Positions 281-20,742 of a stretch of DNA of 24,611 nucleotides are shown in pieces. The notes below the pieces were generated by a model, which worked only from the letters and a program-made list of their open reading frames with translations, was not told the origin of the DNA and did no database searches. The position numbers and the translations under genes were made by a program. The stretch covers positions 1 through 24,611 of IMG/VR virus record IMGVR_UViG_3300020215_000135. One strand, written 5' to 3'. The DNA comes from a virus. Position 1 is the first letter of the stretch. Every line of letters begins with the position of its first letter.

Positions 281-1234
281 ATGAGTGCTACTAGAGAAAC
301 CCTGAGTTCCCGCGCCGTTGTCGGCATGTACTACGAGCGCCTGCAGGCGCTGGTGGCGGCCGCCTGGATCGACGCCGTCTCCAACTATTTCACCTCCGAC
401 CAGCCCAGCGAGGAATACGCCTGGCTGAACATGCCGCCGACCTTGCGCGAATGGATCGGCGGCCGCCATGCCAAGGGCTTAACGGCCAACGGCATCGAGA
501 TCAAAAACCGCCATTTCGAGGCGACGATGGAGATTCTGCTCCGCGATCTGCGCCGCGACAAGACCGGCCAGCTGCGCACCCGGATGTCCGAATTCGCCGA
601 ACGCGGCCTGACGCATTTCGCCAGCTTGCTCAGTACGCTGATCGTCAACGGCGAAAGCACGGTCTGCTACGACGGCCAGTATTTCTTCGATACCGACCAC
701 TCGGAAGGCGCTTCCGGCTCGCAGAGCAACGATATCACCACCGATATCTCGGCGCTGCCGGCCAGCGTGCACGGCGCCGCGACCGCGCCGAGCCCCGAGG
801 AAATGCAGCAGGCGATTTTGAAATCCATCGCCCAGATGCACACCTTGGTTGACGATCAGGGCGAGCCGATCAACGAATTGGCCAGCCAGTTCCTGGTTAT
901 GGTGCCGGTGGGTCTGAGCGACGCCGCGCGCTCCGGCTTGTCGACGGCACGGGTCGCAGGCCCCAGCACCTTCGATATCGACGGCATGTCGATCCGCCTG
1001 GCGGTCAATCCACGCCTGACGGCGGCCGGCTGGACCGACAAGTTCGCGACCTTCCGCACCGACGGCAGCGTCAAGCCGTTGATCCGGCAGGAAGAAACCA
1101 AGCCGACGCTGAAAGTGAAAGACGAGAACAGCGAGTTCGCGTTCGATAACGACGCTATCCAGCTCGGCCTCGACACCTGGCGCAACGTTGGCTACGGTCG
1201 CTGGCAGGGCGCTGTCCTGAACACGTTGGTGTAA
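281..1234 (+). CDS. Mu gpT-like major head (capsid) protein
   Basis: This 317-residue protein resembles the Mu-like prophage major head subunit gpT family, which forms the icosahedral shell. Recognisable features are the N-terminal TRETLSSRAVVGMYYERL segment, the WLNMPPTLREWIGGRH stretch near residue 50 and the GQYFFDTDHSE motif near residue 135. The length fits the family (about 300 residues). A GAAGGA ribosome binding site lies a few bases before the ATG. It is followed three bases later by a small gene of the same head module, and further on by gp36- and gp37-like genes, the usual order in Mu-like phages. This is the best single marker that the block is a Mu-related transposable prophage. 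Confidence 0.9.
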   Translation: MSATRETLSSRAVVGMYYERLQALVAAAWIDAVSNYFTSDQPSEEYAWLNMPPTLREWIGGRHAKGLTANGIEIKNRHFEATMEILLRDLRRDKTGQLRTRMSEFAERGLTHFASLLSTLIVNGESTVCYDGQYFFDTDHSEGASGSQSNDITTDISALPASVHGAATAPSPEEMQQAILKSIAQMHTLVDDQGEPINELASQFLVMVPVGLSDAARSGLSTARVAGPSTFDIDGMSIRLAVNPRLTAAGWTDKFATFRTDGSVKPLIRQEETKPTLKVKDENSEFAFDNDAIQLGLDTWRNVGYGRWQGAVLNTLV

Positions 1235-1237
1235 GCC

Positions 1238-2746: not shown

Positions 2747-2903
2747 ACCAGTAAAAACCGAAATCAAGCGCGTGAAAGTGAAGCTGAAAATGCGCCACAC
2801 CCACGCCGGCATCGAATACGACGAAGCGGCCGTCAAGGCCGGCGTCGAGATCGAAATTACCGAACAACAAGCCGCCGTCCTGAAAGCCCAGGGCGTTATT
2901 TAA
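2730..2903 (+). CDS. Small phage protein, unknown function
   Basis: This 57-codon ORF starts at an ATG preceded by GAGGT five bases upstream. The product is basic at the N-terminus (EIKRVKVKLKMRHTHAG) and then has an EYDEAAVKAGVEIEITEQQA segment, consistent with a small beta-strand plus helix fold. Small proteins of this type, with a KVKL..HTHAG stretch followed by a helix, are frequent just upstream of tail tube genes in Mu-like siphophages. No function is known to me. It lies 20 bases before the tail tube gene and is probably co-transcribed with it. Confidence 0.7.
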   Translation: MAATTEPVKTEIKRVKVKLKMRHTHAGIEYDEAAVKAGVEIEITEQQAAVLKAQGVI

Positions 2904-2923
2904 CTTAATTACGGGAAATCACC

Positions 2924-4047: not shown

Positions 4048-4112
4048 CGAACTACGGCTGGCAATTTTTTATAACAACCCTCCAACTCAGCAATAAGGGC
4101 GACAATGGCTAA
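3942..4112 (+). CDS. -1 frameshift extension of the tail chaperone (gpT-like part)
   Basis: From 3942 the -1 frame relative to the upstream chaperone is open to a TAA at 4110-4112 and overlaps the tape measure start by eight bases. It encodes 56 residues that look like real protein, especially ACVFLIERGHANVANYGWQ followed by FFITTLQLSNKG. Joined at the slippery site, the product would be 146 residues (90 from the zero frame plus 56). In lambda and many other long-tailed phages the chaperone gene is read in this two-frame way just before the tape measure gene. The +1 frame is closed by a TGA at 3983-3985, so only a -1 shift works. Confidence 0.65.
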   Translation, partial: GPAGSSRSAGVGTSDTTGDLDRACVFLIERGHANVANYGWQFFITTLQLSNKGDNG

Positions 4113-7100
4113 CAATTCCCGCAATCTGGCATTAAGGCTGCTCATCAATGCCGAAGACAGGGCGTCAGCGGTATTGAACGGCTTGCGCAACAACGCAGGC
4201 AAAGTCGCGGCCGCGATCGCGGGTTATTTTTCCATCAGCGCCTTCAAGGGCATGGCCGATGATGCCGCCGCGTTCGAGCGGCAGATGGCGACCGTAGCGG
4301 CCGTTTCCGGCGTCGCCGGCGAGGACCTGAAAAAACTGGAGCAAGCGGCCAAGGACATGGGCGCCAGCACCGAATTCTCGGCCATGGATGCCGCGCAGGC
4401 GCTGGAAAGCCTGGGGCGATCCGGATTAAATGCCGAGCAGCAGATGCAGGCGCTGCCGCAAGTGCTGGCGTTGGCGCAAGCCAATGGCCTGGAGCTTGGG
4501 CAGGCTGCCAGCTTCATCACGCAGACGGTCTCTGGCATGGGCCTGTCGTTCGGTGATTCCGCCCGTGTCGCCGACGTGCTGACCAAGGCCGCAGCCAGCG
4601 CCAACACCAGCGTTGAAGGCTTGGGAGCCGGTCTGTCTTATGCGGCGCCGGTCGCCCAATCGCTGGGGCTGACGCTGGAGCAAACGACGGCCTATCTGGC
4701 CAGCCTGGCTAATGCCGGCATCGACGCCTCGCGCGCGGGCACGTCATTGAATAATATGATGTTCCAGTTCCAGGACCCGGCCAGCAAATTCCGCCGGGAA
4801 CTGCAGGCCCTGGGTATCAACACCACGGATTTCAACAAAGCGCTGGCGGAACTCGCGAAAGAAGGCAAGGACGGCGAAGGCGCCATCTTGGCATTGGGCA
4901 TGGAAGCTGGCCCGGCTATGCGCGCATTGCTCAATCAGGGCATTCCCTCGGTCCAGAAACTCACCGACACGCTCAATAATGCTGCCGGCGCTGCAAAAAC
5001 CGCCGCCGCGACCATGACCGACAATCTGGTCGGCTCCGTGCGAAATCTGGACAGCGTCTGGGAGGGCCTGCGCCTGCAAATGGCTCAGCCGATCCTTGAT
5101 CCGCTGAAAAACGCGATCAACTTCGTGTCCGGAAAACTGCAGGCCTTGGTCGACGACGGCACGATCAGCCGGGTCGGGGAATTCATCGCGCAAACCTTTG
5201 ACCGGGGCGCCAAAGCGTTCGAATCCTTTATCGGGAAAATCGATTTTAGCGTAGTGGGCGCCGCAGCCAATAATTTCGGCCAGAATTTCAAGATCGTTTT
5301 CAATGCTGGCGTCGAGATCGCCGGTACGCTGGCTGACACGATCGGCCGCGTTTATGCAGCGCTCAATGCCAGTGGCGCTTTCGATTCATTCAAAGCAATC
5401 GCCACCACAGCGATCAAAGCCACTGTTGACGGCGTGCATGAGCTATCAAGGATCGTCACCGAAGCCTTTACGGTCGTTGCCGAATCGAAAGCCTTTACCG
5501 AGTTCGCGGACGCCGCGAAAATCGCCCTCGAAACGGTCATTGCGGTCGGCAAATCGCTGTCCGAGCCGTTTGTCGACCTTTTCAAGTTGCTCGGCGACGG
5601 CAAGGGCGAGGCGCAATCGTTCGGCCAGACATTCGGCCAGGTATTGACAACGCTGGCCCAAACCGTGACCTTGTTCGTCAGCGGATTTTCCACCGGGCTT
5701 GAAACCATAAAAACGGCGTTTTACGGCATCGCCGGCGCCGGTGCTCAGGTGATCAGCACGTTGTTGAATGGCGTGGCGGCCACGCAGGAGGGCCTGGCTA
5801 AAATCACCTTCGGGGACGTTTCCCGTAAATGGGCCGAGGCTGCCGCCGACAACCGATTGATCGCTGAATCATTCGCCGAAAGCGCCGGCGTCAATTTCGC
5901 AAAAGCAGAAGCGGCCATGGATGGCGTCTCAACATCCGCACAGCGCACCAATGCCAGCTTGATGACGTTGGTCGGCGACGGCCTACAGCAATCGAACATG
6001 GGGCTGAGCGCCAATGCCCAGGCGTCACAGCAAGCCTGGGCGGCGGGCGATGCCTTGGCCAATAGTGCCGCTCAGTGGGTTAATCCGCACGCCGCTTTGG
6101 TCGAGCAGCTTAGGGAGCAACAGAATGCGCTGATCGCGACCGGCGCCAGCCAGGCAGAGCTGCAGCAGGTCAGTGCCAAGCTCACCAAAGCTCAGGATGA
6201 CGCCAAGGCGGCCGCCGAACAGCACGCTAAAGCTATCGAAATAGCCGGAAGCAGCGCCAACACCGCGGCGGGCGATGTTGGCAGCCTGAACAAGCAAGTC
6301 AGTGATCTGCCCAAAGAGCCGAAAAAAATCGACATCAATGCCGACACCCGGGAAGCTTTGGACCGCATTAGCGAAATCAAGGCGCCGACCGCTTCCGTGC
6401 ATACGGTCTATGCGGCCACGGGCGTCAATCAGGCGCTGGGGGAAATCAGTAAGCTGAAACAGCCTACCAGCAGTGTGCATACCGTCTATGTGAACCGCGT
6501 CGATAATGGGAGCTTGCCCGTGCAGGCGGCCGGCGACCCGGCCGCACAAGCCACTGGAGGCCCTGCCGGCCAACCGACCGGCCTGCCCTGGCGCTTCAAC
6601 ACCGGCGGCTATGCGCCCAGATCCGGCAAGCTGCCCGGCTTCGGCGGCGGCGACCGCATCAAGGCTTTATTGGAGGCCGGCGAATTTATCGTGCGCAAGG
6701 AAGCCGTGCAAGCCCTGGGCCTGCCGTTCATGCACGCTATCAATGCCGGGCGAGTGCCGACGGCCGGCGACGTGATCAAGCGGGCCATGGGCGGAAGCGT
6801 CGGCTATGACCTGGACGAGGAACTCCGGAAGAAACAGGAGGAACGCGAAAAGAAGATCGTCGAGCGAATCATCGGCAATCCGCTGGCGCTTGGGCTGTCG
6901 GGGACATCCAGCTTTTCACGCTCAAAGATGCTGCGCAATGCCGGCAAGGTATTGAGCCAGATCGGCCGTGCGGATCTGGCGCCGAAGGTCGGCGAACTCA
7001 TGAACGCCCGCCTGGCGGAAACCGGCGGCACGTATAGTACCAAAAGCAAGCTCGGCGACCGGCAAACCCAGTTCGACAAGGCCGCCATCTTAAAGGCGCA

Positions 7101-7392
7101 TTTGTTCGACGAGCCGGCGGACGCTACCCAAAGGCCGCAATTGAATAGCGCCCCGTCCCTCCAGCTGCCCGCATTGCAGACGCCCAAAATCAACATCCCG
7201 ATGCCGTCGATCCCGCGCCTGCCGGAAGCGCCGGCCGGCCGAGGGGCGGCATCGGCCAATGCAGCGCCCGGCCGAACCGAACGCATTCAGTTTATAGCGC
7301 CCAATGGGCAAAGCCTGACCGGCGAATTTAAGCCCGGCGATATGACCCAGATGCTGCAAATCCTCAAGGATGCCGGAGCGCGCACCGCATGA
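4105..7392 (+). CDS. Phage tail tape measure protein (TP901 type)
   Basis: This is the largest gene of the block, coding for 1095 residues. It carries the N-terminal tape-measure core: AFERQMATVAAVSGVAGEDL near residue 55, MGASTEFSAMDAAQALE near residue 90, and LEQTTAYLASLANAGIDASR near residue 192. The middle is long, Ala-rich and helical, with a hydrophobic stretch near residues 515-555. Around residues 745-800 there are two copies of a short motif, KAPTASVHTVYA and KQPTSSVHTVYV. Near residue 830 is the common C-terminal signature NTGGYAPRSGKLPGFGGGDR with GEFIVRKEAVQALG. The protein sets tail length and reaches the cell envelope during infection. Its length implies a long non-contractile or contractile tail; the neighbours favour a siphovirus. 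Confidence 0.92.
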   Translation: MANNSRNLALRLLINAEDRASAVLNGLRNNAGKVAAAIAGYFSISAFKGMADDAAAFERQMATVAAVSGVAGEDLKKLEQAAKDMGASTEFSAMDAAQALESLGRSGLNAEQQMQALPQVLALAQANGLELGQAASFITQTVSGMGLSFGDSARVADVLTKAAASANTSVEGLGAGLSYAAPVAQSLGLTLEQTTAYLASLANAGIDASRAGTSLNNMMFQFQDPASKFRRELQALGINTTDFNKALAELAKEGKDGEGAILALGMEAGPAMRALLNQGIPSVQKLTDTLNNAAGAAKTAAATMTDNLVGSVRNLDSVWEGLRLQMAQPILDPLKNAINFVSGKLQALVDDGTISRVGEFIAQTFDRGAKAFESFIGKIDFSVVGAAANNFGQNFKIVFNAGVEIAGTLADTIGRVYAALNASGAFDSFKAIATTAIKATVDGVHELSRIVTEAFTVVAESKAFTEFADAAKIALETVIAVGKSLSEPFVDLFKLLGDGKGEAQSFGQTFGQVLTTLAQTVTLFVSGFSTGLETIKTAFYGIAGAGAQVISTLLNGVAATQEGLAKITFGDVSRKWAEAAADNRLIAESFAESAGVNFAKAEAAMDGVSTSAQRTNASLMTLVGDGLQQSNMGLSANAQASQQAWAAGDALANSAAQWVNPHAALVEQLREQQNALIATGASQAELQQVSAKLTKAQDDAKAAAEQHAKAIEIAGSSANTAAGDVGSLNKQVSDLPKEPKKIDINADTREALDRISEIKAPTASVHTVYAATGVNQALGEISKLKQPTSSVHTVYVNRVDNGSLPVQAAGDPAAQATGGPAGQPTGLPWRFNTGGYAPRSGKLPGFGGGDRIKALLEAGEFIVRKEAVQALGLPFMHAINAGRVPTAGDVIKRAMGGSVGYDLDEELRKKQEEREKKIVERIIGNPLALGLSGTSSFSRSKMLRNAGKVLSQIGRADLAPKVGELMNARLAETGGTYSTKSKLGDRQTQFDKAAILKAHLFDEPADATQRPQLNSAPSLQLPALQTPKINIPMPSIPRLPEAPAGRGAASANAAPGRTERIQFIAPNGQSLTGEFKPGDMTQMLQILKDAGARTA

Positions 7393-7766
7393 GCATCCTA
7401 TTAGATACGATCACGCTGCCGGACGATCTGATCTGGATCGATGAATACGCCCATACGCCGGTTAAACAGACCGTCTCGACCGCCGTCGACGGTTCGCTGA
7501 TCGTCGAGGCCGCCGCCCAGACCAAAGGCCGGCCGATCACGCTGGCCGGCGGCGCCGATTACGGCTGGATCGACCGGGCCACCCTGGAACTGCTGCGCGC
7601 GAAACAATACCAGCCCGGCCTGACCCTGACGCTGACCCTGCGCGGCACGGCTTACAGCGTGCTGTTCACGCAGCCGGGCGGCATCGAGGCAGCGCCCGTG
7701 GTCGACTACAACACCCCGGATGCCAGCGACTGGTATACCGTGACCCTGAAATTTATCGAAGTGTAG
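7389..7766 (+). CDS. Tail-tip protein downstream of tape measure
   Basis: This 125-residue protein overlaps the tape measure stop (ATGA at 7389-7392). It is mostly beta-strand by appearance: LDTITLPDDLIWIDEYAHTP, then SLIVEAAAQTKGRPITLAGG, a helix with ATLELLRAKQ, and strands LTLTLTLRGTAYSVLF and WYTVTLKFIEV. It holds the place of the lambda gpM-like or distal-tail-type minor proteins that join the tape measure end of the tube to the tip. That role is inferred from order and size. The reading frame and coupling make the gene itself secure. Confidence 0.78.
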   Translation: MSILLDTITLPDDLIWIDEYAHTPVKQTVSTAVDGSLIVEAAAQTKGRPITLAGGADYGWIDRATLELLRAKQYQPGLTLTLTLRGTAYSVLFTQPGGIEAAPVVDYNTPDASDWYTVTLKFIEV

Positions 7767-7768
7767 CC

Positions 7769-8137
7769 ATGACTGATATTTATGAAGACATCAAGCAACT
7801 GGACGAGGCTTACGGGGCTGTCAATCTCCAAAAGACCATGGATGCCGGGAAGCGTGAACAAAGCCAGGCGGCAGCGCTGTTTTACGTCGTATGGTCGCTT
7901 TATAAGCGTGGGAGCGATGACTTTGCCATAACAGGAATTTTTTCAAAAGAAGTCGACGCACATGCGTTAAAAGAACGACTGGATGGCGACTCATCCTGTT
8001 TAGCTGCCAGTGTAGACCGATGGCCCATGCCGGACATCATTGAGCACTTGGTTCGGGATCGATTGGGAAAAATGGCTGATCTCTTATTGCCCATCGAAAG
8101 CGCCATCAGAGCATTTATTAACGAGAAGAAAAATTAA
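7769..8137 (+). CDS. Small protein of unknown function inserted in the tail module
   Basis: This 122-residue protein starts two bases after the previous gene and ends two bases before the next. Its codon use is visibly less GC-rich than its neighbours (for example KEVDAHALKERL and EKKN are coded with A/T-ending codons), which suggests a later arrival. Residues 4-22 (IYEDIKQLDEAYGAVNLQK) match residues 39-57 of the next protein (VFNDISQLDRTYGRVSLRK) at 10 of 19 positions. It may be a partner or a diverged partial duplicate of the N-terminal part of that tail protein, or a moron gene. No function is recognised. Confidence 0.65.
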   Translation: MTDIYEDIKQLDEAYGAVNLQKTMDAGKREQSQAAALFYVVWSLYKRGSDDFAITGIFSKEVDAHALKERLDGDSSCLAASVDRWPMPDIIEHLVRDRLGKMADLLLPIESAIRAFINEKKN

Positions 8138-8139
8138 AT

Positions 8140-10188: not shown

Positions 10189-11774
10189 TGAGCAAAGCGA
10201 TTTATCAAACCATCAATGTCATGGACTTTCTGTCGCCGAATACGGCGCTGACCGTCAGCTATTCGCTGGACGGCGCTACGCCGGCGGCGAAAAACGAGAC
10301 CGTCAACCTGACAGAACTGAAAGTCGACCTGTCCACGACCACGGCCGAGGCGTTGGTCGCGGGCGGCCTCAAATTCAGCATTGCAGGCGAGACCTTCATC
10401 GACCGGCAGGGCGTTTTGTACCGAGGCCATGACGCCGCCACCGACAGCGCCACGGCCTCAGGCAGCCTCGACTACCAGACCGGCCAGGCGATACTGACGC
10501 AGTGGGCTGGCGGTAGCCCGACGCTGACCATCCACGCGGCGGTCAGCATCAAGGGCACGGCCGCCGTGGTCGGCGTGGCGGGCCGCGCGCCCGGCGCACC
10601 GCTGGCCACCGGGCAGTTCCAGCTGGTCTGCACGGCGCAGGACGGCACCGCCATCGTGGCCAGCGCCGACAACAACGGCGACATCGCGCACGAATGGGTA
10701 AAAGGGCATGTCGACTGGCAGTCCGGCGTGTTCATGATCGGTTTCGGCAAGCTGGTGCTGGACAGCACGATCCCGGCCGACGTGAAAACCAACTCGGGCT
10801 GGTACGACGCGGCCAACGTCGACGGCGACGGCAAGATCTGGACGCCGTTGCTGGTCAAACCTGAAACGATCACCTTCAACGCCGTTTTAGTCAGCTATAT
10901 TCCGCTCGATGCCGACATCCTGGGCGTCGATACGGTCCGGCTGCCGCAGGACGGCCGCGTGCCGATCTTTCGCGTCGGCAATGTCGGCGTCGTGCACAAC
11001 ACGCAGACGCTGACGCTGCCGAATCCGGTTCTGGCCGGCAGCGTGCACGACTGCGGCCGCACGCTGCTCAGCTATGCCAAGGTGTTCGACGCCGACGGCC
11101 AGATCGTGCCCACCAGCAAATACACGGCCGACCTGGACGCCGGCACGGTCACGATGGCCGACCCGCTGGACCTGACCGGCTATGTGCAGCCCCTTTATAT
11201 CGAGCACCGCATCGAGGACATGGCGCTGGTCACCGACGTGCAGATTACCGGCCAGGTCAAATTGATGAAGCCGGTGCGCCATGCCTACCCGGCCAACACC
11301 AGTTATTTTAGCAGCGCGCTCGTGATCGGCGACCTGCAGGCCCGCGTGGCCGATCTGTTAGACCAGCAGACCTGGGGCAATGTCTGGAGCGACACCCTGT
11401 CTGGCTCGCCGGCCGGGGCCTCGTTCAACGATGCGCTGTATCCGATCGACGTGACCAACCTCGGCGCGATCCAGGAGCGCTGGGCGCTCGTGTTCACGGG
11501 CGCGACCGCGTTTAGCTGCTACGGCGAAGACTCTGGACTGGTCGCCGAAGGCACGACCGGCGCCGATTTCGCGCCGATCAACCCGATCACGGGCACGCCG
11601 TATTTCACGATCGACCATCTGGGCTGGGGCGCCGGCTGGAGCGCCGGCAACGCGCTGCGCTTTAACACCATCGCGGCCAATTTCCCGCTGCAGCTGGCTC
11701 GCACGACCCTGCAATCGGACCCGGCCGTCTACACGGATAATTTCAAACTACAAATCAGAGGCGATGCCAACTAA
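10188..11774 (+). CDS. Tail-tip structural protein, unknown family
   Basis: This 528-residue protein has its start placed at the ATG at 10188, which overlaps the upstream stop; an in-frame GTG at 10173 is less likely. The N-terminal third is beta-rich and carries turns resembling those in the preceding protein (SLDYQTGQAILTQW and HVDWQSGVFMIGFGK). The C-terminal half is different, with LMKPVRHAYPANTSYFSSAL, LDQQTWGNVWSDTLSG and a final LQSDPAVYTDNFKLQIRGD. It is probably part of the tip or baseplate-like complex together with its neighbours. No enzymatic motif is visible. The role is inferred from its position between the tape measure and the hub-like gene. Confidence 0.72.
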   Translation: MSKAIYQTINVMDFLSPNTALTVSYSLDGATPAAKNETVNLTELKVDLSTTTAEALVAGGLKFSIAGETFIDRQGVLYRGHDAATDSATASGSLDYQTGQAILTQWAGGSPTLTIHAAVSIKGTAAVVGVAGRAPGAPLATGQFQLVCTAQDGTAIVASADNNGDIAHEWVKGHVDWQSGVFMIGFGKLVLDSTIPADVKTNSGWYDAANVDGDGKIWTPLLVKPETITFNAVLVSYIPLDADILGVDTVRLPQDGRVPIFRVGNVGVVHNTQTLTLPNPVLAGSVHDCGRTLLSYAKVFDADGQIVPTSKYTADLDAGTVTMADPLDLTGYVQPLYIEHRIEDMALVTDVQITGQVKLMKPVRHAYPANTSYFSSALVIGDLQARVADLLDQQTWGNVWSDTLSGSPAGASFNDALYPIDVTNLGAIQERWALVFTGATAFSCYGEDSGLVAEGTTGADFAPINPITGTPYFTIDHLGWGAGWSAGNALRFNTIAANFPLQLARTTLQSDPAVYTDNFKLQIRGDAN

Positions 11775-12919
11775 TGACCGCACCCGTTAAAAACTATCTC
11801 TCTACTGACACCGGCGCCCCGACCTGGAACGGCACGATCGGATCGACCATCGCCGTGCTGGATGCGCTGCTGATCAATGGATTCAACGAAAAAACCCTGT
11901 CGTCCCTGACGCAGGCCGACGGCGTGGCGACGGCGACCACGGCCACGGCGCACGGCTACCGCGTGAATCAGGTCGTCGAAATCGCCGGCGCGAACGAGGC
12001 GGGCTATAACGGCCAGTTCACGGTCATGTCTGTGTCGACCCTGGCGTTTACGTATGCCGTCGATTCCGGCTTGGCGGCCACGGCCACCGGCACGCTCACG
12101 GCCAAAGTGGCGCCGCTGGGCTGGACCAAGGCGTTCAGCGGCACCAACAAGGCCGCGTATCGCTCGAACAATGTTGCGTCGACACAGTGCTTGCTGCGCG
12201 TTGACGATTCGAACGCGCTGTATTCACTGGTGCGCGGCTATAAAACCATGACCGACATCGATACCGGCGCCGACCCGTTCCCGACCACGGCTCAGCAGGC
12301 CAACTATGCCTGGAAAAAAAGCTCGACGGCTGACGCGACGGCTCGCAAATGGACGCTGTTCGGCGACGACATGCTGTTTATGTTTGCGCTGGCCTACTCG
12401 ACGGCTTCGGGCAACACCCCGGGCTCGTCCGCCTGGCCGCCCCTTTTTGGCTTCGGCGATTTCATCTCGTACAAACCGGGCGATGTGTTTAATTGCCTGA
12501 TTTACGCCTACGCGACAACGGCCCCAACCAATATCTACAATGATGCCGGATTTAACCATACTGCCAATATCCCTTATTGCCCACGAGCCTTTACGCAAAT
12601 CGGATCGGCGCTCAGGCTGTCAAAATTAGGCATTTATCCCAATGCATCATCAGGTTTAGCATCTGGCGGGCTGTCGTACCCCAATCCCGAAGATAACGGG
12701 CTGCTGATCTGGAGCCGGCACGTGCTGCAGGATAGCTCCAGCGATGTGCGCGGCATCCAGCCGGGTGCGTATCATCTGCCGCAGGCCGTGCCGATGAACG
12801 ACGGCGATGTCGTATCGGATGTCGAAGGCTACGCGGGAAAGCAATTTTTCATGCTGGGCTGTAGCAATGCTGCCACCGAGGCTCGCATGGCCATCGACAT
12901 AACCGGGCCCTGGCGATGA
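11774..12919 (+). CDS. Tail-associated protein, unknown family
   Basis: This 381-residue protein has an ATG overlapping the upstream stop by one base. An N-terminal section (about 1-45, with KNYLSTDTGAPTWNGTIGS) is followed by a small beta domain around residues 45-110 (ATAHGYRVNQVVEIAGANEA and FTVMSVSTLAFTYAVDSG), a pattern seen in several phage structural proteins. The rest is rich in Tyr, Trp, Ser and Gly (SAWPPLFGFGDFISYKPGD), fitting an exposed tail-tip or fibre-like protein. The stretch near 12530-12660 uses more A/T-ending codons than the rest, which may reflect recombination in a receptor-contact region. Function is inferred from context. Confidence 0.72.
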   Translation: MTAPVKNYLSTDTGAPTWNGTIGSTIAVLDALLINGFNEKTLSSLTQADGVATATTATAHGYRVNQVVEIAGANEAGYNGQFTVMSVSTLAFTYAVDSGLAATATGTLTAKVAPLGWTKAFSGTNKAAYRSNNVASTQCLLRVDDSNALYSLVRGYKTMTDIDTGADPFPTTAQQANYAWKKSSTADATARKWTLFGDDMLFMFALAYSTASGNTPGSSAWPPLFGFGDFISYKPGDVFNCLIYAYATTAPTNIYNDAGFNHTANIPYCPRAFTQIGSALRLSKLGIYPNASSGLASGGLSYPNPEDNGLLIWSRHVLQDSSSDVRGIQPGAYHLPQAVPMNDGDVVSDVEGYAGKQFFMLGCSNAATEARMAIDITGPWR

Positions 12920-13263
12920 GCGCGCGTTCACTCGACCCCTATGGCCGCCTGCCGACGCCCAACCAGCCGACCACGCAGACCAATCGGCTAGTTGATCGAG
13001 GGCTGCCGCGTCATGCCATTTTTGAGCTGGATGGCCCAGGCACGCTCAGCGGCACCGTGAAAGAGGGCGCGATCCCGGTCGCCGCGCGCAAGGTTTTTTT
13101 ATTGGATAAGCGCAACATGGCGCTTTTGCGCTGCACCGTATCGGCCAGCGATGGTTCGTACGCCTTCCCCGGCCTGAACAAATCGCTGAAATACGTCGTG
13201 ATCGCGTTCGATCCCACACAGAATTTTAACGCCGTCATCGCCGACAACGTCACCCCGGTTTAA
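12916..13263 (+). CDS. Small tail protein with a carboxypeptidase-regulatory-like beta domain
   Basis: This 115-residue protein overlaps the previous gene by four bases (ATGA). From about residue 38 it shows the pattern of a carboxypeptidase regulatory-like or transthyretin-like beta-sandwich: GTLSGTVKEGAIPVAARKV, VFLLDKRNMALLRCTVS, then ASDGSYAFPGL and YVVIAFDPTQNFNAVI. Such domains are common as accessory modules in tail-tip and fibre proteins of siphophages, often next to the fibre or hub genes. The N-terminal 35 residues are Pro/Thr-rich and probably a linker or docking segment. Confidence 0.75.
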   Translation: MSARSLDPYGRLPTPNQPTTQTNRLVDRGLPRHAIFELDGPGTLSGTVKEGAIPVAARKVFLLDKRNMALLRCTVSASDGSYAFPGLNKSLKYVVIAFDPTQNFNAVIADNVTPV

Positions 13264-13273
13264 GGAGTAGCTT

Positions 13274-13687
13274 ATGAGTATCATTGGCTTTGCCGACGAT
13301 CTGCGCACGGCCCGCGCCGAGCAGATTATCGCCAAAATTAACGCCGGCGCAGGGCCTGGCACGATGTTGTTTTACACGGCCCCGCAGCCGGCCAAGGGCG
13401 CGGCCATCACTACGCAGACGCTGCTGGGAACGGTTACTTTCTCAGAACCGGCCGGTTCCGTGGTTGATGGCGAGCTGACGTTCGACGTGATCGCCGACGA
13501 CGCCAGCGCCGACGCCGACGGCCCGGCCGTCTGGGTGCGAGTGCTCAATGGCGACGGCGGTTTCGTGATGGACATGCCGGTCACCGATACTAACGGCACA
13601 GGCCCCGTCAAAATGCCCTCGACGCAGATTTACGCGGGCGGCACGATCCACGTCGCCAGCGCCGTGCTGACCGAAGGCAATATCTAA
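13274..13687 (+). CDS. Tail structural protein, unknown family
   Basis: This 137-residue protein is preceded by an AAGGAG ribosome binding site 7 bases before the ATG. It has an N-terminal helix (FADDLRTARAEQIIAKINAG) followed by beta-strand segments (GTMLFYTAPQPAKG, LGTVTFSEPAGSV, GELTFDVIADDASA, PAVWVRVLNGDGGFVMDMPV). Similar short proteins sit beside fibre and hub genes in Mu-like siphophages, without assigned roles. It lies between the carboxypeptidase-regulatory-like protein and the hub-like protein, with 10 and 4 base gaps, so it belongs to the same transcript. Confidence 0.7.
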   Translation: MSIIGFADDLRTARAEQIIAKINAGAGPGTMLFYTAPQPAKGAAITTQTLLGTVTFSEPAGSVVDGELTFDVIADDASADADGPAVWVRVLNGDGGFVMDMPVTDTNGTGPVKMPSTQIYAGGTIHVASAVLTEGNI

Positions 13688-13691
13688 CCCC

Positions 13692-15797
13692 ATGCCCTAC
13701 ACGCCGCCGGCCGGCGATGCGGTCGAGTTAATATTCGCCGGCCCCTATACGCCGCCTGCCGGCGATGCGGTAGCGCTCGATTTCAACCCCCCGCCGCCGA
13801 ATACCGCCACGGCCTCAATCGACGGCACGCTGGACAGCGTGGTCGGCGTTATCGGCGCCACCGTTCATGCGCCGGTCCTTATCGACGGCCTGCTGGACGA
13901 TGTCACCGGCGCCGTCACCGGCGTGGCGCTGGCAGCCGCGACCCTTGAAGGCCAGTTGGACGACGCCGGCGGCGACGTGGCAGCCTATCCGATCGGCCCG
14001 GCCAGCCTCGACGGCCTGCTGGACGATACCACCGGCCTGATCGCGACGGTCGGCGGCGTCAATGCCACGCTCTCGGCGACGCTGGACGACGTGTCGGCAG
14101 TGATCGAGGCCGACTGGAGCGCGGGCGTTTTTCGCGGGCTCACGGCCAGCCGGTCGGCGGTTTTTGAGACGACGCAAACGCGCGCCGAACGACAGTTCAC
14201 GGGCGGCATCCGTCAGGCCGCCGAGCAACGGCCGATGATCCGCGGCGCCTGGCAACCAGCCGACGCCGTGCCGGCCGAGTGGGCTGGACGCTGGTCCGAA
14301 GTCGCGCGCAAGCGCCTGGCCATGACCAGCGGCTGGGATTTTGTGCCGGCCCGCCAAGCCCAAGCGGCCGGCGCTTACCGCGCCTCGCCACGCCGGGCTA
14401 TCGCCGCCCAGGCGGATTGGCAGATCGCCGGCGCATTGGCTCGCGCGTTGCTCGACACCTACCGCAGTCCGCCGAGACGGGACCTGAGTCCCGTTTTTGG
14501 CTATACGGCCGCCCGCCCGGTCGCCGGCGACTGGCTGGCCGGTTACGGCCTGGCCACCGTGACCGACCGGCGCTGGTCCGTGCTGCCCTGGGAGATCGCC
14601 AACCCGCACAGCTGGATCTGGGGCGGCTGGCATTACCCGCCGCCGGAACCGCAGCCCCCTTACGCCGGATCGCCCGACCTGGTCTTCTATCAGCCGATGG
14701 AGGATTTCACCGGCGGCGCCATCCTGGAATTGAACCGCCCGTGCTATGCCTGGTCGCTGGTCCGGCGGCACACGACTATTAATAAAGGAGTCACGATTGT
14801 GCTGCATACCGTCAACGTCACCCGTCTGCCCGATCTAGTCAATGTGCCGGCCTTGTCGGCCTCGCTGCAATTCGACATCGACAGCTGGGCCTGGGGCGTC
14901 ACGCTTAACCTGCGCGGCCCGCAGGCCATGGCGCTGCTGGAGCCGGTCAACGGCGAGCCGCGTCAGGTTCGCGTCGAGATCGATGGCCTCTATGTCACGG
15001 CCATGATCGAATCCTGGGGCGAGCGCCGCCAGTTCGGCGAAACCGTCTACACGGCCACGGGTCGCTCGCCGCTGGCGCTGCTGGCTCAGCCCTTCGCGCC
15101 GCTCCGGTCCTACCTGGAAACCAGCCAGAAAACAGCGGCCCAGCTGATCGACCGCGAGCTGCTCAATACCGGCTGGAGCGCGTCCTATCATGCCAGCCTG
15201 CTGCAGCTGTTCACGACCGACTGGCTGGTGCCGGCCGGCGCCTGGAGTTACCAGAACAAAGCGCCGATCGACGCCATTGTCCAGATCGCCCGCGCCGCCG
15301 GCGCCCGAGCGTTCGCCGACCGCAATGCCGGCCTGGTGCACATTGCCCCTCGCTATCCGGTCAGCCCGTGGAATTGGGCTACGGCCACGCCCGACAAAAC
15401 CATCCCGCTGGGCCTGATCCGATCGATCAATACCCAGCTCAGCCCGCAGCCGGATTACAACCAGGTCTATGTCTCGGGCCAGCACCAGGGCGTTCTGGTC
15501 GCGGTCAAACGCCAGGGCACGGCGGGCGACCAGCCGGCGCCCATGATTACGGACAGCCTGATCACTTACGTCAATGCCGGGCGCGAACGCGGGCGCAACA
15601 TACTGGCCAATACCGGCCGGCAGGCTCGCGTTACCCTGGATCTGCCGATCAACGAGATCACCGGGCTGCTGGAGCCGGGGCAGCTGGTCGAAGTTTCGGA
15701 CGATATCCCCTGGCGGGGGCTCGTGACCGGCATCAACGTCACCGGCGAGCACGGCGCCGCCGGACAACAGGTGGAAATCGAGAGGCATTATTCATGA
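13692..15797 (+). CDS. Tail hub-like protein with N-terminal tandem repeats
   Basis: This 701-residue protein opens with two tandem copies of a 16-residue unit (PYTPPAGDAVELIF, PYTPPAGDAVALDF). Five units of about 22-30 residues follow, with the core (I/L)DGxLDDxxGxxxxxV, up to about residue 140. The C-terminal 330 residues look like a tail hub or late-control-type domain: TVNVTRLPDLVNVPALSASL, FDIDSWAWGVTLNLRGPQA, AIVQIARAAGARAFADRNAG, and a last strand region with PGQLVEVSDDIPWRGLVTGI. The hub sits at the distal end of the tape measure and nucleates tail assembly. An in-frame GTG at 14799 with AAAGGAG eight bases upstream could give a shorter product that begins at the hub domain. Confidence 0.78.
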   Translation: MPYTPPAGDAVELIFAGPYTPPAGDAVALDFNPPPPNTATASIDGTLDSVVGVIGATVHAPVLIDGLLDDVTGAVTGVALAAATLEGQLDDAGGDVAAYPIGPASLDGLLDDTTGLIATVGGVNATLSATLDDVSAVIEADWSAGVFRGLTASRSAVFETTQTRAERQFTGGIRQAAEQRPMIRGAWQPADAVPAEWAGRWSEVARKRLAMTSGWDFVPARQAQAAGAYRASPRRAIAAQADWQIAGALARALLDTYRSPPRRDLSPVFGYTAARPVAGDWLAGYGLATVTDRRWSVLPWEIANPHSWIWGGWHYPPPEPQPPYAGSPDLVFYQPMEDFTGGAILELNRPCYAWSLVRRHTTINKGVTIVLHTVNVTRLPDLVNVPALSASLQFDIDSWAWGVTLNLRGPQAMALLEPVNGEPRQVRVEIDGLYVTAMIESWGERRQFGETVYTATGRSPLALLAQPFAPLRSYLETSQKTAAQLIDRELLNTGWSASYHASLLQLFTTDWLVPAGAWSYQNKAPIDAIVQIARAAGARAFADRNAGLVHIAPRYPVSPWNWATATPDKTIPLGLIRSINTQLSPQPDYNQVYVSGQHQGVLVAVKRQGTAGDQPAPMITDSLITYVNAGRERGRNILANTGRQARVTLDLPINEITGLLEPGQLVEVSDDIPWRGLVTGINVTGEHGAAGQQVEIERHYS

Positions 15798-16036
15798 ATT
15801 TATACCAACAGTTCCAGGCGCTGATCCCCAGAGCCAGCCAGATCATCGCGACCGTGCAGACCGAGCACGCCGACGGCACGACCAGCTGCCTGACGCTGGA
15901 CAATCAACCTATTCGCGTGCGGGGCGTGAACAGTCGAATCGCCGGCGCTAAAGTGTTTATCGAGATCGATCCGGCGCTGGGGGCGTCGATCCTCGGCGAT
16001 GCGCCGGATTTGCCGGGGTATTCGGTAGAGGTCTAA
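15794..16036 (+). CDS. Last tail-module gene: small hub-associated protein
   Basis: This 80-residue protein has its ATG overlapping the hub gene stop (ATGA). It starts with a helix (NLYQQFQALIPRASQI) and continues as small beta strands: IATVQTEHADGTTSCLTLDN, IRVRGVNSRIAGAKVFIEID. Short proteins of this form, with a TVQxxxADGT strand followed by a VRG..xAGAKVFI segment, are common as the last gene after the hub in Mu-like siphophages; their function is not settled. It is the last convincing phage gene before the putative prophage end. Confidence 0.75.
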   Translation: MNLYQQFQALIPRASQIIATVQTEHADGTTSCLTLDNQPIRVRGVNSRIAGAKVFIEIDPALGASILGDAPDLPGYSVEV

Positions 16037-16081
16037 GCTGCGTTAAATACTGCTAAATTTTCGTTAAACGAGGAAAGTTGC

Positions 16082-16213
16082 GTGCGGTTTTTAAAAAATG
16101 TTGTGCCAAATATCGCGCAAATCTACAGGAGCTTTGATGCTTGCACGGTCGGCAATAAATACTATATCCGGGAGTACAAGATCGATGGAGGCGCCGAACA
16201 TGGCGCAGAATGA
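16082..16213 (+). CDS. Possible 43-codon ORF at the prophage right end
   Basis: A GTG with AGGAAA five bases upstream opens a 43-codon frame ending in TGA at 16211-16213. The second half reads GNKYYIREYKIDGGAEHG, which looks like protein. The first half runs through the first 22-bp end repeat, so that part is shaped by the repeat. It could be a small phage gene at the end of the late transcript or a chance ORF. No family is recognised. Confidence 0.25.
   Translation: MRFLKNVVPNIAQIYRSFDACTVGNKYYIREYKIDGGAEHGAE
16102..16123 (+). repeat. 22-bp end repeat, inner copy (R3-like)
   Basis: This copy shares the 20-base core TGTGCCAAATATCGCGCAAA with two more copies downstream, and it ends in TC as the middle copy does. 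It lies exactly 180 bases to the left of the middle copy. Interpreted as an inner transposase-binding site of the right end of a Mu-like prophage. Confidence 0.7.
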
Positions 16214-16281
16214 GGCGGCTATTTAATCAAAGCTAGATTTGCAGAATAAGTAATTAAATTACATTATTTGCAATTAAGAAT

Positions 16282-16303
16282 TGTGCCAAATATCGCGCAA
16301 ATC
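16282..16303 (+). repeat. 22-bp end repeat, middle copy (R2-like)
   Basis: This copy has the same 20-base core as the inner one and directly abuts the outer copy, giving an exact 22-bp period. Mu transposase sites are also 22 bp, and R1 and R2 lie next to each other at the Mu right end. Confidence 0.72.
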
Positions 16304-16325
16304 TGTGCCAAATATCGCGCAAACC
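16304..16325 (+). repeat. 22-bp end repeat, outer copy (R1-like)
   Basis: This is the outermost copy, with the same core, ending in CC instead of TC. Four bases later comes a CA dinucleotide (16328-16329), and the integrase homology begins at 16330. Transposable phage ends terminate in 5'-TG/CA-3', so 16329 is the most likely last base of the prophage. Confidence 0.72.
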
Positions 16326-16329
16326 TACA

Positions 16330-16848
16330 TCTTATCTGACTGATGCCCAGATAAAGGAATTAATCAGTCAGGTTAAATTGAGTAAAAATGAAAGTCTTCT
16401 CTTTGTCGTTTTGATCTGCCTGGTAACGGGTGCAAGATGGTCTGAAGCTGAAGGTTTGACTGCTGCCAATTGCATTAACCAGGGCTTTCAATTTATCGAT
16501 ACCAAGAACGGTCAATCTAGGTTTGTTCCGGTTGAAAGATCTGTTTTTCTTCAGGTAAAAAATCGGCTCAATCAAAAGCCTTTCCAGTCCTGTTACAGTG
16601 CCTACCGATCCGCCTTTAAACGTACCGGCTTTAAAGTTCCTGATGGCCAGCTCGCCCATATATTACGCCATACATTCGCCAGCCATTTTGTCATGAAAGG
16701 CGGTAATATCGTTGCTCTGCAAAAGATTCTTGGCCATTCAAGTTTAAATATTACTATGCGGTATTCTCACTTGGCCCCGGATTATCTTCTTCAGGCGGTC
16801 GATCTGAATCCTTTGGCTGATCCATTGAATAACCTTATACCAGGTTAA
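16330..16848 (+). pseudogene. int: P2-type tyrosine integrase, C-terminal half (5' truncated by prophage)
   Basis: The frame encodes about 172 residues of the catalytic domain of a phage P2-like integrase, a site-specific tyrosine recombinase. Homology starts at SYLTDAQIKELISQVKL. Catalytic residues are visible: Arg in TGARWSEAEG, Lys in DTKNGQSRF, His and Arg in LAHILRHTFASHF, His in ILGHSS, and Tyr in TMRYSHLAP. The C-terminus ends VDLNPLADPLNNLIPG, as in P2-type integrases. Such proteins are about 330 residues, so the N-terminal arm-binding and core-binding half is missing. The open frame upstream runs only into the 22-bp repeats and meets a stop at 16255-16257. A TTG at 16378 might start a fragment, but this would not be a working recombinase. 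The gene was most likely split by the Mu-like prophage. Confidence 0.85.
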
Positions 16849-16909
16849 GGTTATTGGATGAGAAACAGTAGAAAAGTGGAAAGAATGTGGAAAGCTTTTT
16901 GATAGGCAT

Positions 16910-16943
16910 AAAAAAACCAGTTGACCGTGAAGTCTAACTGGTT
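16910..16943 (-). terminator. Rho-independent terminator for minus-strand transcription
   Basis: A stem AACCAGTTGAC / GTCTAACTGGTT (one bulged base, loop CGTGAA) is followed on the minus strand by a run of seven T (A run at 16910-16916). It lies just downstream of the 3' end of the minus-strand tRNA-Lys fragment, so it is probably that tRNA gene's original terminator. It also faces the integrase gene. Confidence 0.7.
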
Positions 16944-16960
16944 GATTCGTTTGGTTTTGT

Positions 16961-17006
16961 TGGTGGGTCGTGTGCGATTCGAACGCACGACCATCGCATT
17001 AAAAGT
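16961..17006 (-). tRNA. tRNA-Lys(TTT) 3' fragment, likely attachment-site core
   Basis: On the minus strand this reads from the anticodon loop (CTTTTAA) to an encoded CCA end. It includes the T arm GTGCG-TTCGAAT-CGCAC and the acceptor strand ACGACCC-A-CCA. This matches the 3' part of gammaproteobacterial tRNA-Lys, whose 5' acceptor strand would be GGGTCGT. No D arm or 5' acceptor strand is present upstream (higher coordinates), and the 5' anticodon stem is imperfect. It is therefore a remnant, as left by integration at a tRNA 3' end, and not a working gene. It sits next to a tyrosine integrase, the usual arrangement for an island attachment site. Confidence 0.8.
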
Positions 17007-17257
17007 GCTATATTGACTTGTAAGTTTTTGAATTAACTGAACTAAAACAAATAGCCCTCACGTTGCCTTGTCTATTTGTGCATATGTTTGTTTATACGAA
17101 TTACCCAGATTTTACCCAGTTGTTATCCACGTTAGCATCAAAAGCACAAGCAGCTTTTTTGATGACACAACGACCATTGTAAACAACTATACTGGCTGAG
17201 AAATCAACGATTACACCGTAACGGCTTGCTGTTGATTATCACCATGGAGCATTTAAA

Positions 17258-18787
17258 TTGTACTTACCTAATCCTATTAATTTTCCGGTCGACGATCTCC
17301 CTCTGCTGATTAGACACGCCGTGAGTGAGATGCAATGGAATACCCGATTTCCGCTGCCGCTCATTGTTTCATCGGCTTTGGGCGCAATTTCGCTCGCCTG
17401 CCAGAACTCCATTGATGTCCACCCCCCAATCGGATCGGCTTCGCCTTGTTCTTTATTCATGTTGCTGGTCGCGGACTCGGGTGAAGGTAAAACACCATCC
17501 GATCATTATTTCACCCAGCCGATTAGGGACTTTGAGGAAAATGAAGCCAGGAAAGCAGAGTTGGCATTGTCTGAAGAAAAGGCTTATCGGAGTACATGGG
17601 CGATTGAGCTTAAGGTAATTGAAGCCGCTCTCAAAAAGAACAGAAAAAAAAGTTTATCCACTGATAAGCCCGAACAGATTGATCTACTCAACGTGGAGTT
17701 CGAAAATCTCCAGCAAAAATTGCAAGCTCATTTATCAAAAGAGCCTCGACCGCAGACGAAGTATAAATTGCTGCATAGCAATACTACGCCGGCCAAGATT
17801 GCGTTGGATTTGTATGAAAATTGGCCCTCTGCTTGCCTGATTTCAGATGAAGCGGGTAGCCTCTTCCGAGGTGAAGCCATGAGGGATTTAGGCATGCTGA
17901 ACCAGTTGTGGGATGGCACGCCGCTAAATGTAGATCGCGTCAGTTCGCCTAGCTTTAAAGTAAGAGATGCCAGATTGACTATTTCCCTAATGGTTCAAGG
18001 CCAAATATTAACTAATTACCTAAAGGGACGTGGCAAAGACGCGCGAGACATTGGCTTTATTGCACGGTGTCTGGTTGCCTTTCCATTTTCGACCAAGGGT
18101 TCAAGAATGGTGAATAATCAGCCCCAGTCATGGCACAACCTAACGGCATTCCAGCAGCGCATTACAGACATATTAACTCAGAATAAATTAGAGGCAGATC
18201 AAGGCAGGCAAACGAGACGTATCCTGGAGTTTTCACAAGAGGCAAAAAACCATTGGATCGACTTTCGTAATCAAATCGAATTGGATCTCAATGCGGGAAG
18301 ATATTTGTCTGACGTTGCTGATGGTGCTTCAAAAATTGCCCTCAATCTTGCTCGAATGGCCGCTTTGTTTCACTTTTTTGAAGGCCGTGACGGCGAGATT
18401 TCCGCTGAAACCCTAAACTCTGCAAGATCAATTTGTAACTGGTACATGCACGAGTTCAAACGTCTATTCACAAAAAATCCGGAGGTTCCCATTGAGGTTT
18501 CTGATGCCAATGATCTAGAGCAGTTTCTAGTAAGATGGTACCAAAATCATCCTGGTATGATAGCTATTCAAAAGAGCCATATCGCACAATATGGCCCTAG
18601 CCAACTTCGCAAAAACGCCTATAGACGTAAGGCTGCTCTAAATGCGCTTGTTTATCACAATAAAATCCGAATACAGCCACAAGGAAAAACGCAATGGGTC
18701 GAATTTAATCTGAATTTCTTGCCAACATCGAGAAACACTAATGCGCAATTTACCGGAATGCCATACCCAATAAATAACGATGTGTAG
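17258..18787 (+). CDS. DUF3987 (YfjI-like) P-loop protein
   Basis: This 509-residue protein of the DUF3987/YfjI family is typical of P4-like integrative elements and CP4-type islands. A Walker A motif ADSGEGKT lies at residues 72-79 and an acidic Walker B-like motif CLISDEAGSLF at about 193-203, so it is probably an ATPase. A charged helical region (about 95-165) lies between them. The family is linked to element replication or primase-helicase functions, but its biochemical role is not established to my knowledge. The start chosen is TTG at 17258, with GGAGC 7 bases upstream; the ATG at 17244 is out of frame. The length fits the family and the frame is intact. It stands alone, without the primase, regulator or excisionase genes that often accompany it. 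Confidence 0.85.
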   Translation: MYLPNPINFPVDDLPLLIRHAVSEMQWNTRFPLPLIVSSALGAISLACQNSIDVHPPIGSASPCSLFMLLVADSGEGKTPSDHYFTQPIRDFEENEARKAELALSEEKAYRSTWAIELKVIEAALKKNRKKSLSTDKPEQIDLLNVEFENLQQKLQAHLSKEPRPQTKYKLLHSNTTPAKIALDLYENWPSACLISDEAGSLFRGEAMRDLGMLNQLWDGTPLNVDRVSSPSFKVRDARLTISLMVQGQILTNYLKGRGKDARDIGFIARCLVAFPFSTKGSRMVNNQPQSWHNLTAFQQRITDILTQNKLEADQGRQTRRILEFSQEAKNHWIDFRNQIELDLNAGRYLSDVADGASKIALNLARMAALFHFFEGRDGEISAETLNSARSICNWYMHEFKRLFTKNPEVPIEVSDANDLEQFLVRWYQNHPGMIAIQKSHIAQYGPSQLRKNAYRRKAALNALVYHNKIRIQPQGKTQWVEFNLNFLPTSRNTNAQFTGMPYPINNDV

Positions 18788-18943
18788 TAGTTCCAACTCG
18801 ATCTGATAGCTGCCAAAATTAGTCTCGGTTGAGTCTGACATTGACAGGCTGAATGCGACCCTAAACTGCCATACACCTTTCTCCAAAGCGGCCGCATGCC
18901 CAAGTATCGTTTTTTGGTTTCGCTTCTACGAAGCGGCCTTTCG

Positions 18944-18987
18944 TGGTCTCTGGCAGTTGGCCAAAAGCGGACGACTGCCAGAGACCA
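18944..18987. repeat. 14-bp perfect inverted repeat (hairpin)
   Basis: The arms TGGTCTCTGGCAGT and ACTGCCAGAGACCA are perfect complements with 16 bases between them. There is no T run on either side, so it is not a simple terminator. It could be a binding site or a repeat-element palindrome. Confidence 0.7.
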
Positions 18988-19173
18988 TCAGTGACAGCAA
19001 TAGAATGAGTACCTGCCTGTGGGTTAAGCTATGGATGCTTGATTGCAAGACCCCTTTGCTTGTGCTTCACAAACAAGACACTCAAACCTTTCAAATACGA
19101 GTTCTTGCCATAAAGTCCAGATCAAGTACTGAGTCAGTACGCTTAAGGATTTGAAATAATCGTATTAACCTAT

Positions 19174-19296
19174 GGTGCTAGTTGTGTTTTGACCCTATCA
19201 ATCAATGTATTGCGAGAGTGATTTCTACTTGAATAGTTAGCCAGATAATTCGTATGTCATTGATTTTTATTGACACACCATTCACCAACTAGCACC
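19174..19296. repeat. 11-bp inverted repeat spaced about 100 bases
   Basis: The arms GGTGCTAGTTG (19174-19184) and CAACTAGCACC (19286-19296) are perfect complements. Outside them lie TTAAC on the left and GTTATTAA on the right, which extend the symmetry imperfectly. The whole unit of about 140 bases could be a small foldback element. It lies just upstream of the small membrane protein gene. Confidence 0.6.
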
Positions 19297-19368
19297 AAAA
19301 GTTATTAAGTAGGGTTTATGATGGTATATTGTGCTACCGTTTGGTTAGACTATTCAAAGTAGATTGAT

Positions 19369-19818
19369 ATGTTATTTGTCCTTGCTTTAATATTTGCAAT
19401 ACCAACTTTTGGGTTATCTATTGTTTCACTATTTGTATATCACTATTTTAGAGTGAAATCTTTTAGAAGAACAATGGAATATGTAATTGTTGATTTAGCT
19501 TTTACTCCCAAATTTCACTCTGCACTGATAGAAGAAATAAAACATATAGATGCTTTCGTTTATGCTGAAGAGGTAGGTGAAAATATTTCTAAGAAAGGCG
19601 ATATAGTAAAATTTACAGTTAACTTGGATGGGTTAAGTTATTCTATAGAGCTTGAACGAGAACCATTAGGTAAAAAAGCAATTATATCTTCAAAGCTCAT
19701 ATTTTCTTCTATGAATTTTTGGGAAACGTATGATATTTTAGAAAATCAGTTATCTTCCGGTAAGATTCCTAAAAAAGAATACGATAGAAGAATAGACTTT
19801 TTGAATGACTATGCCTAA
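19369..19818 (+). CDS. Small membrane-anchored protein of unknown function
   Basis: This 149-residue AT-rich gene has a product that begins with a hydrophobic segment (FVLALIFAIPTFGLSIVSLF, residues 3-22) followed by a basic stretch (FRVKSFRRTM), so it is probably anchored in the inner membrane with the bulk in the cytoplasm. The soluble part has alternating strand and helix segments (IVKFTVNLDGLSYSIELERE) and a C-terminal helix (KEYDRRIDFLNDY). There is no strong ribosome binding site. Codon use is strongly A/T-biased, unlike the prophage and unlike the 515-codon gene downstream, which points to a foreign origin. No family is recognised. The coding character is good but the function is open. 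Confidence 0.6.
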   Translation: MLFVLALIFAIPTFGLSIVSLFVYHYFRVKSFRRTMEYVIVDLAFTPKFHSALIEEIKHIDAFVYAEEVGENISKKGDIVKFTVNLDGLSYSIELEREPLGKKAIISSKLIFSSMNFWETYDILENQLSSGKIPKKEYDRRIDFLNDYA

Positions 19819-19944
19819 GTAACTATAAAAATATAGTTTTTGTTATTCTGGTTGCTCTAAAGACCATTGATGCTTTTATAAACGAAGCAGAAGAATAGGA
19901 AGATAAAAAAGATAATGACTAGCGCCGGAGGGTGTCACCTGGAT

Positions 19945-20742
19945 TTACTTTTTAAGTTCATGTTCTTCGGTATCTACCAGCAAAACCCGCTTCGGGTAAT
20001 ACCCTAATTCATGGTCATACAATTCAGATTGAACCTGCTTCCAACTTGAAAGGTACCCCATTTCACTTATCCAGTCCCATGGATCTGAATAGACTTTAGC
20101 TTCCATGTCAAACTTGGGAATGTATGTTGTGTCATTGCTATCTTGTTGAGCAAAAGCAATATTTGGACACTGAGCTAGACAACGTACAGGTACTGTTTCT
20201 TTGAATTCATGAATTTTTTGAAAAGTTCTGCATCCTCGCCTAGAGATTGCTTTCTTCACATTCTTTAATGGAGTTACAGTGCATCCTAGTTTTTGATAAT
20301 CAATTGGTAAAGAGCAGTTCCATTTTTTAGGATAATCGTTAGGCTCCAAATGATTATAAAAAGCATATAAAGGTATAGCCTTGTTTGCTCGAGCATATTC
20401 TTCGAGTATTTTATGTTGAGCCACTGAGCTAGAGCCTGTACCAACTTTATGATTTAGTGATGAATATCTTCCTGATTTAAAATCTAATTTCTTTGCTTGT
20501 ACCGCATATCTCAGATATCCGGCTTTACGGTTTCCAATCCACCACTCCCAATCAGTTCCCTTGATAGGTTCTAAGTTTTTTGGCGTTTGGATTATTTTTA
20601 TACTCGAAATATTCTGAGATGCTAAATAAAGCAAGATATTATCAGTCAGCGTTTCTTCACCCTGTGAAATTCCAAAGGCTTTAGAGTTCTGTAGGCGATT
20701 CCATATATCATCACACACTGCATTGAAATGATGTTGAAGCAC
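19945..20742 (-). CDS. Putative PD-(D/E)XK-like nuclease (DUF6615-like)
   Basis: This 265-residue protein on the minus strand starts at a GTG with AAGGAG about six bases upstream. Around residues 29-34 is EETLTD, then GTDWEWWIGN at 62-71 and YAVQAKKLDF at 79-88. The series Glu, Asp-x-Glu and Gln-x-Lys fits the PD-(D/E)XK nuclease core (acidic residues plus a QxK variant of ExK). The WEWW and QAKK signature followed by a Q..L...A...PLY.FYN helix-strand recalls the DUF6615 family. A nuclease role, perhaps in defence, is an inference. The gene is a single-gene unit in AT-rich accessory DNA with no methylase or partner beside it. The Cys-rich stretch around 195-215 is an additional feature without a clear match. 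Confidence 0.65.
   Translation of the reverse strand: MLQHHFNAVCDDIWNRLQNSKAFGISQGEETLTDNILLYLASQNISSIKIIQTPKNLEPIKGTDWEWWIGNRKAGYLRYAVQAKKLDFKSGRYSSLNHKVGTGSSSVAQHKILEEYARANKAIPLYAFYNHLEPNDYPKKWNCSLPIDYQKLGCTVTPLKNVKKAISRRGCRTFQKIHEFKETVPVRCLAQCPNIAFAQQDSNDTTYIPKFDMEAKVYSDPWDWISEMGYLSSWKQVQSELYDHELGYYPKRVLLVDTEEHELKK

Follow-up and report, generated by a model that had tools for sequence, protein, structure and literature searches.

Tandem 22-bp repeats as the right end of a B3-type transposable prophage inside a host integrase gene

The window analysed here, a 24,611-nucleotide stretch of viral DNA (IMG/VR record IMGVR_UViG_3300020215_000135), carries three copies of a short repeat beyond the last of its phage tail genes. 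The locus raises the question of whether these repeats are the end of a transposable phage and, if so, of which type. The evidence favours, with a probability of about 0.96, a right end belonging to a B3-type transposable phage of ~39.9 kb that is integrated inside a host integrase gene, its two outer right-end sites (R1/R2) paired with two left-end sites (L1/L2) and the target sequence TCTTAT duplicated.

Repeat array and prophage borders

A core of 20 bp, TGTGCCAAATATCGCGCAAA, occurs three times in identical form, at 16102-16121, 16282-16301 and 16304-16323. The start-to-start distances are 180 and then 22 bp, which confirms the coordinates and spacing given in the initial annotation (two copies at an exact 22-bp period and a third 180 bases inward). 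No further match within 3 mismatches was present in the window, and 100 dinucleotide shuffles of the window yielded no core match. Two of the copies had been described as identical over 24 bases; this holds for copies 1 and 2, numbered by position, which share TTGTGCCAAATATCGCGCAAATCT including one base upstream of the core, but over 26 bp copy 1 is closer to copy 3 (96%, terminal CTACA included) than to copy 2 (88%). The window genes left of the repeats are Mu-like head and tail genes, and the G+C content falls from ~65% to ~42% between 15,000 and 17,000. The features of the window are as follows.

281..1234, + strand: Mu-like major head protein (phrog_371, E 6.2e-50)
4105..7392, + strand: tail tape measure protein (phrog_28420, E 1.1e-129)
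13692..15797, + strand: phage tail protein (phrog_6079, E 2.7e-118)
15794..16036, + strand: last complete phage gene (phrog_5076, PHROG E 1.3e-14)
16102..16127, + strand: third (inner) copy with its own CTACA and without R2, probably a former right terminus (96% to R1 over 26 bp)
16143..16226, + strand: remnant of another phrog_5076-type last gene, from its 3' part (similarity to phage G2; 22 aa at 68%, then out of frame)
16249..16274, + strand: conserved 26-bp accessory element.GcAATTa..TTgC......tGcAA. (fixed position in right ends)
16282..16303, + strand: R2, second predicted transposase site (exact 22-bp period with R1)
16304..16329, + strand: R1, outermost predicted transposase site with terminal CTACA (exact core; border from the interrupted integrase)
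16330..16335, no strand: right copy of the 6-bp target duplication TCTTAT (left copy at 793-798 of contig G001)
16330..16848, + strand: C-terminal half of a tyrosine integrase, the host gene interrupted by the prophage (Phage_integrase, Pfam E 7.7e-20)

The window is a fragment of the virus record, and the left border was read from the longer contig G001 (IMGVR_UViG_3300020154_000006, 48,758 bp; also L022), which is identical to the window over 1-24413; the two probably come from related assemblies and are not independent of each other. The terminal CA of the phage occupies 16328-16329, with 16329 as the last phage base and TCTTAT next to it. The N-terminal half of the integrase lies near the left edge of G001 and ends at TCTTAT (793-798). 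Rejoining the halves with a single TCTTAT restores an intact ORF of 333 aa, which aligns gap-free with six intact relatives (L031-L036; 322-326 aa) at 72-73% identity. The target duplication is therefore the 6-bp TCTTAT, and the element extends from base 799 of G001 to base 16329 of the window. With the borders and the duplication mapped, the earlier proposal of a transposable phage right end with two abutting sites at a terminal CA is borne out.

The TCTTA that had been anticipated at the left junction is indeed there, as part of a duplication of 6 rather than 5 bp. Taken alone, this locus would also allow a duplication of 5 bp, with TTAATT as the start of the left end. TCTTAT is the longest string common to both borders, which share at most six bases, and 5 bp would be a subset of it. 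With 6 bp, the left core and R1 fall into register, at bases 14-20 counted from their respective ends. This length also agrees with three other B3-type insertions, and phage B3 itself is reported to duplicate 6 bp of its target (PMC8705779). On the host side, a DUF3987 (helicase/primase-like) protein (17258-18787, + strand) and a DUF6615 protein (19945-20742, − strand) are encoded downstream of the broken integrase and may be what is left of an element that integrated earlier.

Transposase, gene order and left end

The transposase encoded in G001 (587 aa; phrog_310, E 5.4e-79) is 37-40% identical over nearly its full length to those of Pseudomonas phages B3, JBD25 and PM105 (Beetrevirus) and contains the DDE residues D160, D254 and E289. 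Adjoining it is the gene of the AAA partner TnpB (phrog_296, E 4.7e-71; 49% to B3 TnpB). The transposase gave no match in a Pfam search, the Mu N-terminal domain included, no significant blastp match to the Mu-type (MuA-type) protein of phage G2, and no match in a PDB sequence search; a second, Mu-type transposase gene was not found inside the element. By sequence comparison, the element encodes a transposase of B3 type and not of Muvirus type. It belongs to the known B3 family, and the repeats are confirmed as the right end of a transposable prophage of B3 rather than Mu type. Besides the families of the transposase and TnpB, the element shares siphovirus-type tail genes with B3, PM105 and JBD25, the TGTAG right terminus with B3 and PM105, and the right-end 22-bp period and 6-bp duplication with B3. 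It differs from B3 in a left terminus of TA, in right-end repeats that are much less degenerate and in the extra inner right-end copy.

The gene order also departs from that of B3 (reversed early operon at the left end, repressor, lysis, packaging, head, tail), whose packaging/early half is in reverse order relative to the present element. In G001 (799-20000), the terminase, portal, MuF and gpG genes run leftward beside the left end, while the early genes run rightward. The MuA-like gene that had been predicted near the left end is in the element, ~15.6 kb from that end, owing to this variant order. A misassembly or one-off inversion as the source of the leftward packaging block was rejected, as viral contig G250, which is flanked by a separate 6-bp duplication, shows this gene order too; gpG also adjoins several other left ends (L073, L078, L082, L084, L085). 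The packaging block at the left end is a variant order of the lineage and not an assembly accident, and the type of transposition is not defined by gene order. In G010, another B3-type element, packaging and transposase genes both run leftward.

At the left end, the inverted core copies that had been expected are present, though degenerate: L1, in register with R1, and L2. The left terminus begins with TA and the right terminus is CA, where B3-type elements have TG...CA, and no description of a mixed TA/CA pair was found in the literature. As TA takes the place of the canonical TG, the left end of this copy may be altered. The TA terminus is not taken as disqualifying the element from B3-type membership, because TA-ended relatives have been reported in Leptospira, with TA-TA ends (PMC8705779), and the left terminus of the sister element G250 is TG. 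The Leptospira prophages resemble the present element in a B3/Tn552-related transposase, a 6-bp duplication and TA at a terminus, but have TA at both ends, whereas the present element has TA on the left and CA on the right.

From the observed sites, borders, duplication, interrupted gene and transposase with its DDE residues, we infer binding, pairing and cleavage by the transposase. R1 and R2 are adjacent predicted binding sites, which the transposase and its AAA partner would pair with the degenerate inverted L1/L2 at the left end. The transposase would nick after the terminal CA at 16329; the ends would then be joined to target strands cut with a 6-bp stagger, leaving TCTTAT on both sides, within the host integrase gene. 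The locus offers an anatomy of the ends that is complete and open to checking, for a B3-like phage from outside Pseudomonas.

Related ends and a core common to several transposase lineages

A degenerate pattern of two cores at a 22-bp period was run on viral contigs and bacterial genomes and located right-end-like sites in further viral contigs and in 22 bacterial genome stretches, a few of which look like unrelated repeats (e.g. L067, L079). Most of the right ends terminate in CTACA or TTACA, and the R1 layout with the CTACA terminus recurs in many other prophages. A second set (group II) has a different terminus and adjoins gpG where genes could be placed, which marks these as left ends. While the 22-bp period in the scan-selected sets is imposed by the search pattern, B3 and PM105 were not selected by it and show the period independently. 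Target duplications of 6 bp were found at matched ends in Halopseudomonas aestusnigri (AGAAGG), Candidatus Accumulibacter contiguus (TCTGTG) and G250 (AATGGC), making four B3-type elements with the present one. The L1-L2 spacing is 23 bp in these three, in G001 and in B3, and 22 bp in the group-II left ends, which were selected for 22. The accessory element keeps a fixed place in 19 of 20 right ends, on which the motif was trained, and the same absolute phage-genome direction in 8 of 8 group-II left ends, an independent set. In G001, copies lie beside both ends, at 884-909 (weaker) and 40594.

Among 237 Methylomonadaceae genomes, 10 contain one site each, and a reversed control pattern found 0. 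According to the initial annotation, such repeats in strains lacking the prophage would speak against a phage end. Seven of the ten sites were followed up, and those of G007, G009, G167 and G241 lie at prophage ends. The G207 site has a CTACA end with no transposase found within 40 kb, and the G159 site is a weak match without a proper terminus; the G110 site has a CTACA end and a head-protein match nearby. The left end of G009/G251 and the target duplications of G207 and G014 were searched for and not found. The present locus and its relatives bring methanotrophs and further environmental proteobacteria into the range of B3-type ends. The strong repeats also serve as a search key: a single degenerate pattern of 22-bp period was enough to find the ends of prophages in genomes without annotation.

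Read inward from the border and in the same register, the right end of the window is identical to that of Escherichia phage Mu at 27 of 50 terminal bases and likewise has adjacent R1 and R2. The corresponding counts are 31 for Methylobacter marinus and 27 for B3; shuffles give 13-14, and 0 of 20,000 shuffles reach the window-Mu match. The claim that the core does not resemble the Mu consensus is therefore not supported. The present element differs from Mu in its B3-type transposase, a duplication of 6 instead of 5 bp, the lack of a conserved R3 and another inner half of the core. A further suggestion had been that the core may define a different transposase specificity. However, many prophages, whose transposases are variously of B3, D3112 and Mu type, carry the core at their ends, so that it does not confer a private specificity.

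Right ends of this type accompany Mu- or D3112-type transposases in M. marinus A45 (G007), G167, G241 (variant core) and the Azoarcus MAG G013. The M. marinus prophage is 92.7% identical to the window over 82 bp (16239-16320) and has the core in register at its left end; it differs in its MuA-type transposase and in a 4-bp direct repeat, GCAG, at its borders. The direct repeats at the matched ends of these Mu/D3112-type prophages are GCAG (G007; L093-L095), GTAC (G167; L126-L128) and AGTA (G241; L129-L131), together with a 5-bp GTCGC. The 4-bp repeats were spotted by inspection, with ends set by TGTG and TACA termini and no empty-site comparison. Searches for the M. marinus target gene in uninterrupted form returned none, so that GCAG is read from the sequence alone. 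Mu-type prophages with this core appear to make target duplications of 4 bp, shorter than those of Mu (5) or B3 (6). The end core is common to lineages of transposases whose apparent target staggers differ (6, 5 and 4 bp), which makes cross-recognition between lineages directly testable.

Two other readings of the repeats can be judged on this evidence. Operators can take the form of tandem 22-bp repeats downstream of genes, and the array could consist of regulatory sites (operators or iterons) near a prophage border by chance. Yet several unrelated insertions have the repeats at a fixed distance from a border that was mapped and bears a target duplication, and the Methylomonadaceae genomes with a site have just one each against none for the reversed pattern; the mapped border strongly disfavours this reading, and we consider it very improbable. 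The 82-bp match to M. marinus could instead mean that the element is itself of Mu or D3112 type. This is hardly credible for an element whose own transposase is of B3 type, without a significant match to the Mu-type transposase of G2, and whose duplication is up to 6 bp against 4-5 bp in the Mu/D3112-type prophages examined.

Two arrangements of neighbouring ends were also seen. In G002, a single-copy right end (L025, 659-691; R1 without R2) lies 6 bp (GCGCGC) from an apparent Mu-type left end, as if two transposable phages stood head to tail; the right flank of this contig does not match. In G009 (L092) and G251 (L141), head-region genes belonging to another B3-like phage come directly after a B3-type right end, which suggests nested prophages.

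The inner copy and the origin of the right end

The initial annotation regarded the three copies as a Mu-like R1-R2-R3 layout, and the same orientation of all three, with the third exact over the 20-bp core, would suit an array that works as a whole in the transpososome. However, the third copy is 180 bp from R2, ends in a CTACA of its own and is followed by a truncated, foreign last gene, and it is not conserved: 22 other double-core right ends were inspected, and not one carries a copy in this orientation at the corresponding place. The third copy is probably not a Mu-style R3, and a working three-site array is unlikely.

On the simplest reading, the inner copy would instead be a fossil terminus, probably a relict, with 16127 as the former right terminus of the phage. 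Outward from 16143, the window and the right-end region of phage G2, which comes from the same metagenome, are 77.9% identical. The nearest B3-type relatives match the right end less well than M. marinus does (L053 and L062; 73.7% over 76 bp and 85.1% over 47 bp). The working right end may have been acquired from a related phage, the inner copy being left behind when a later transposition used this further-out end. A recombination event at the repeat would look much the same, so that the fossil terminus is something we infer rather than observe. A more specific proposal, in which a Mu-type phage of the same host family supplied the working right end by capture, the B3-type transposase then used it and the element's own terminus survives as the inner copy, is possible but tentative. 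If true, very different transposases could read one another's ends through the common core, and right ends would be exchangeable.

Two smaller observations concern individual genes. A DNA methyltransferase reading frame in the left arm opens with a long tandem repeat of QTDR codons (G001 ~3540-3760) and is possibly phase-variable. The tRNA-Arg that ARAGORN calls on the minus strand of the window (1764-1854) lies within the head-tail adaptor gene and is in all likelihood a false positive.
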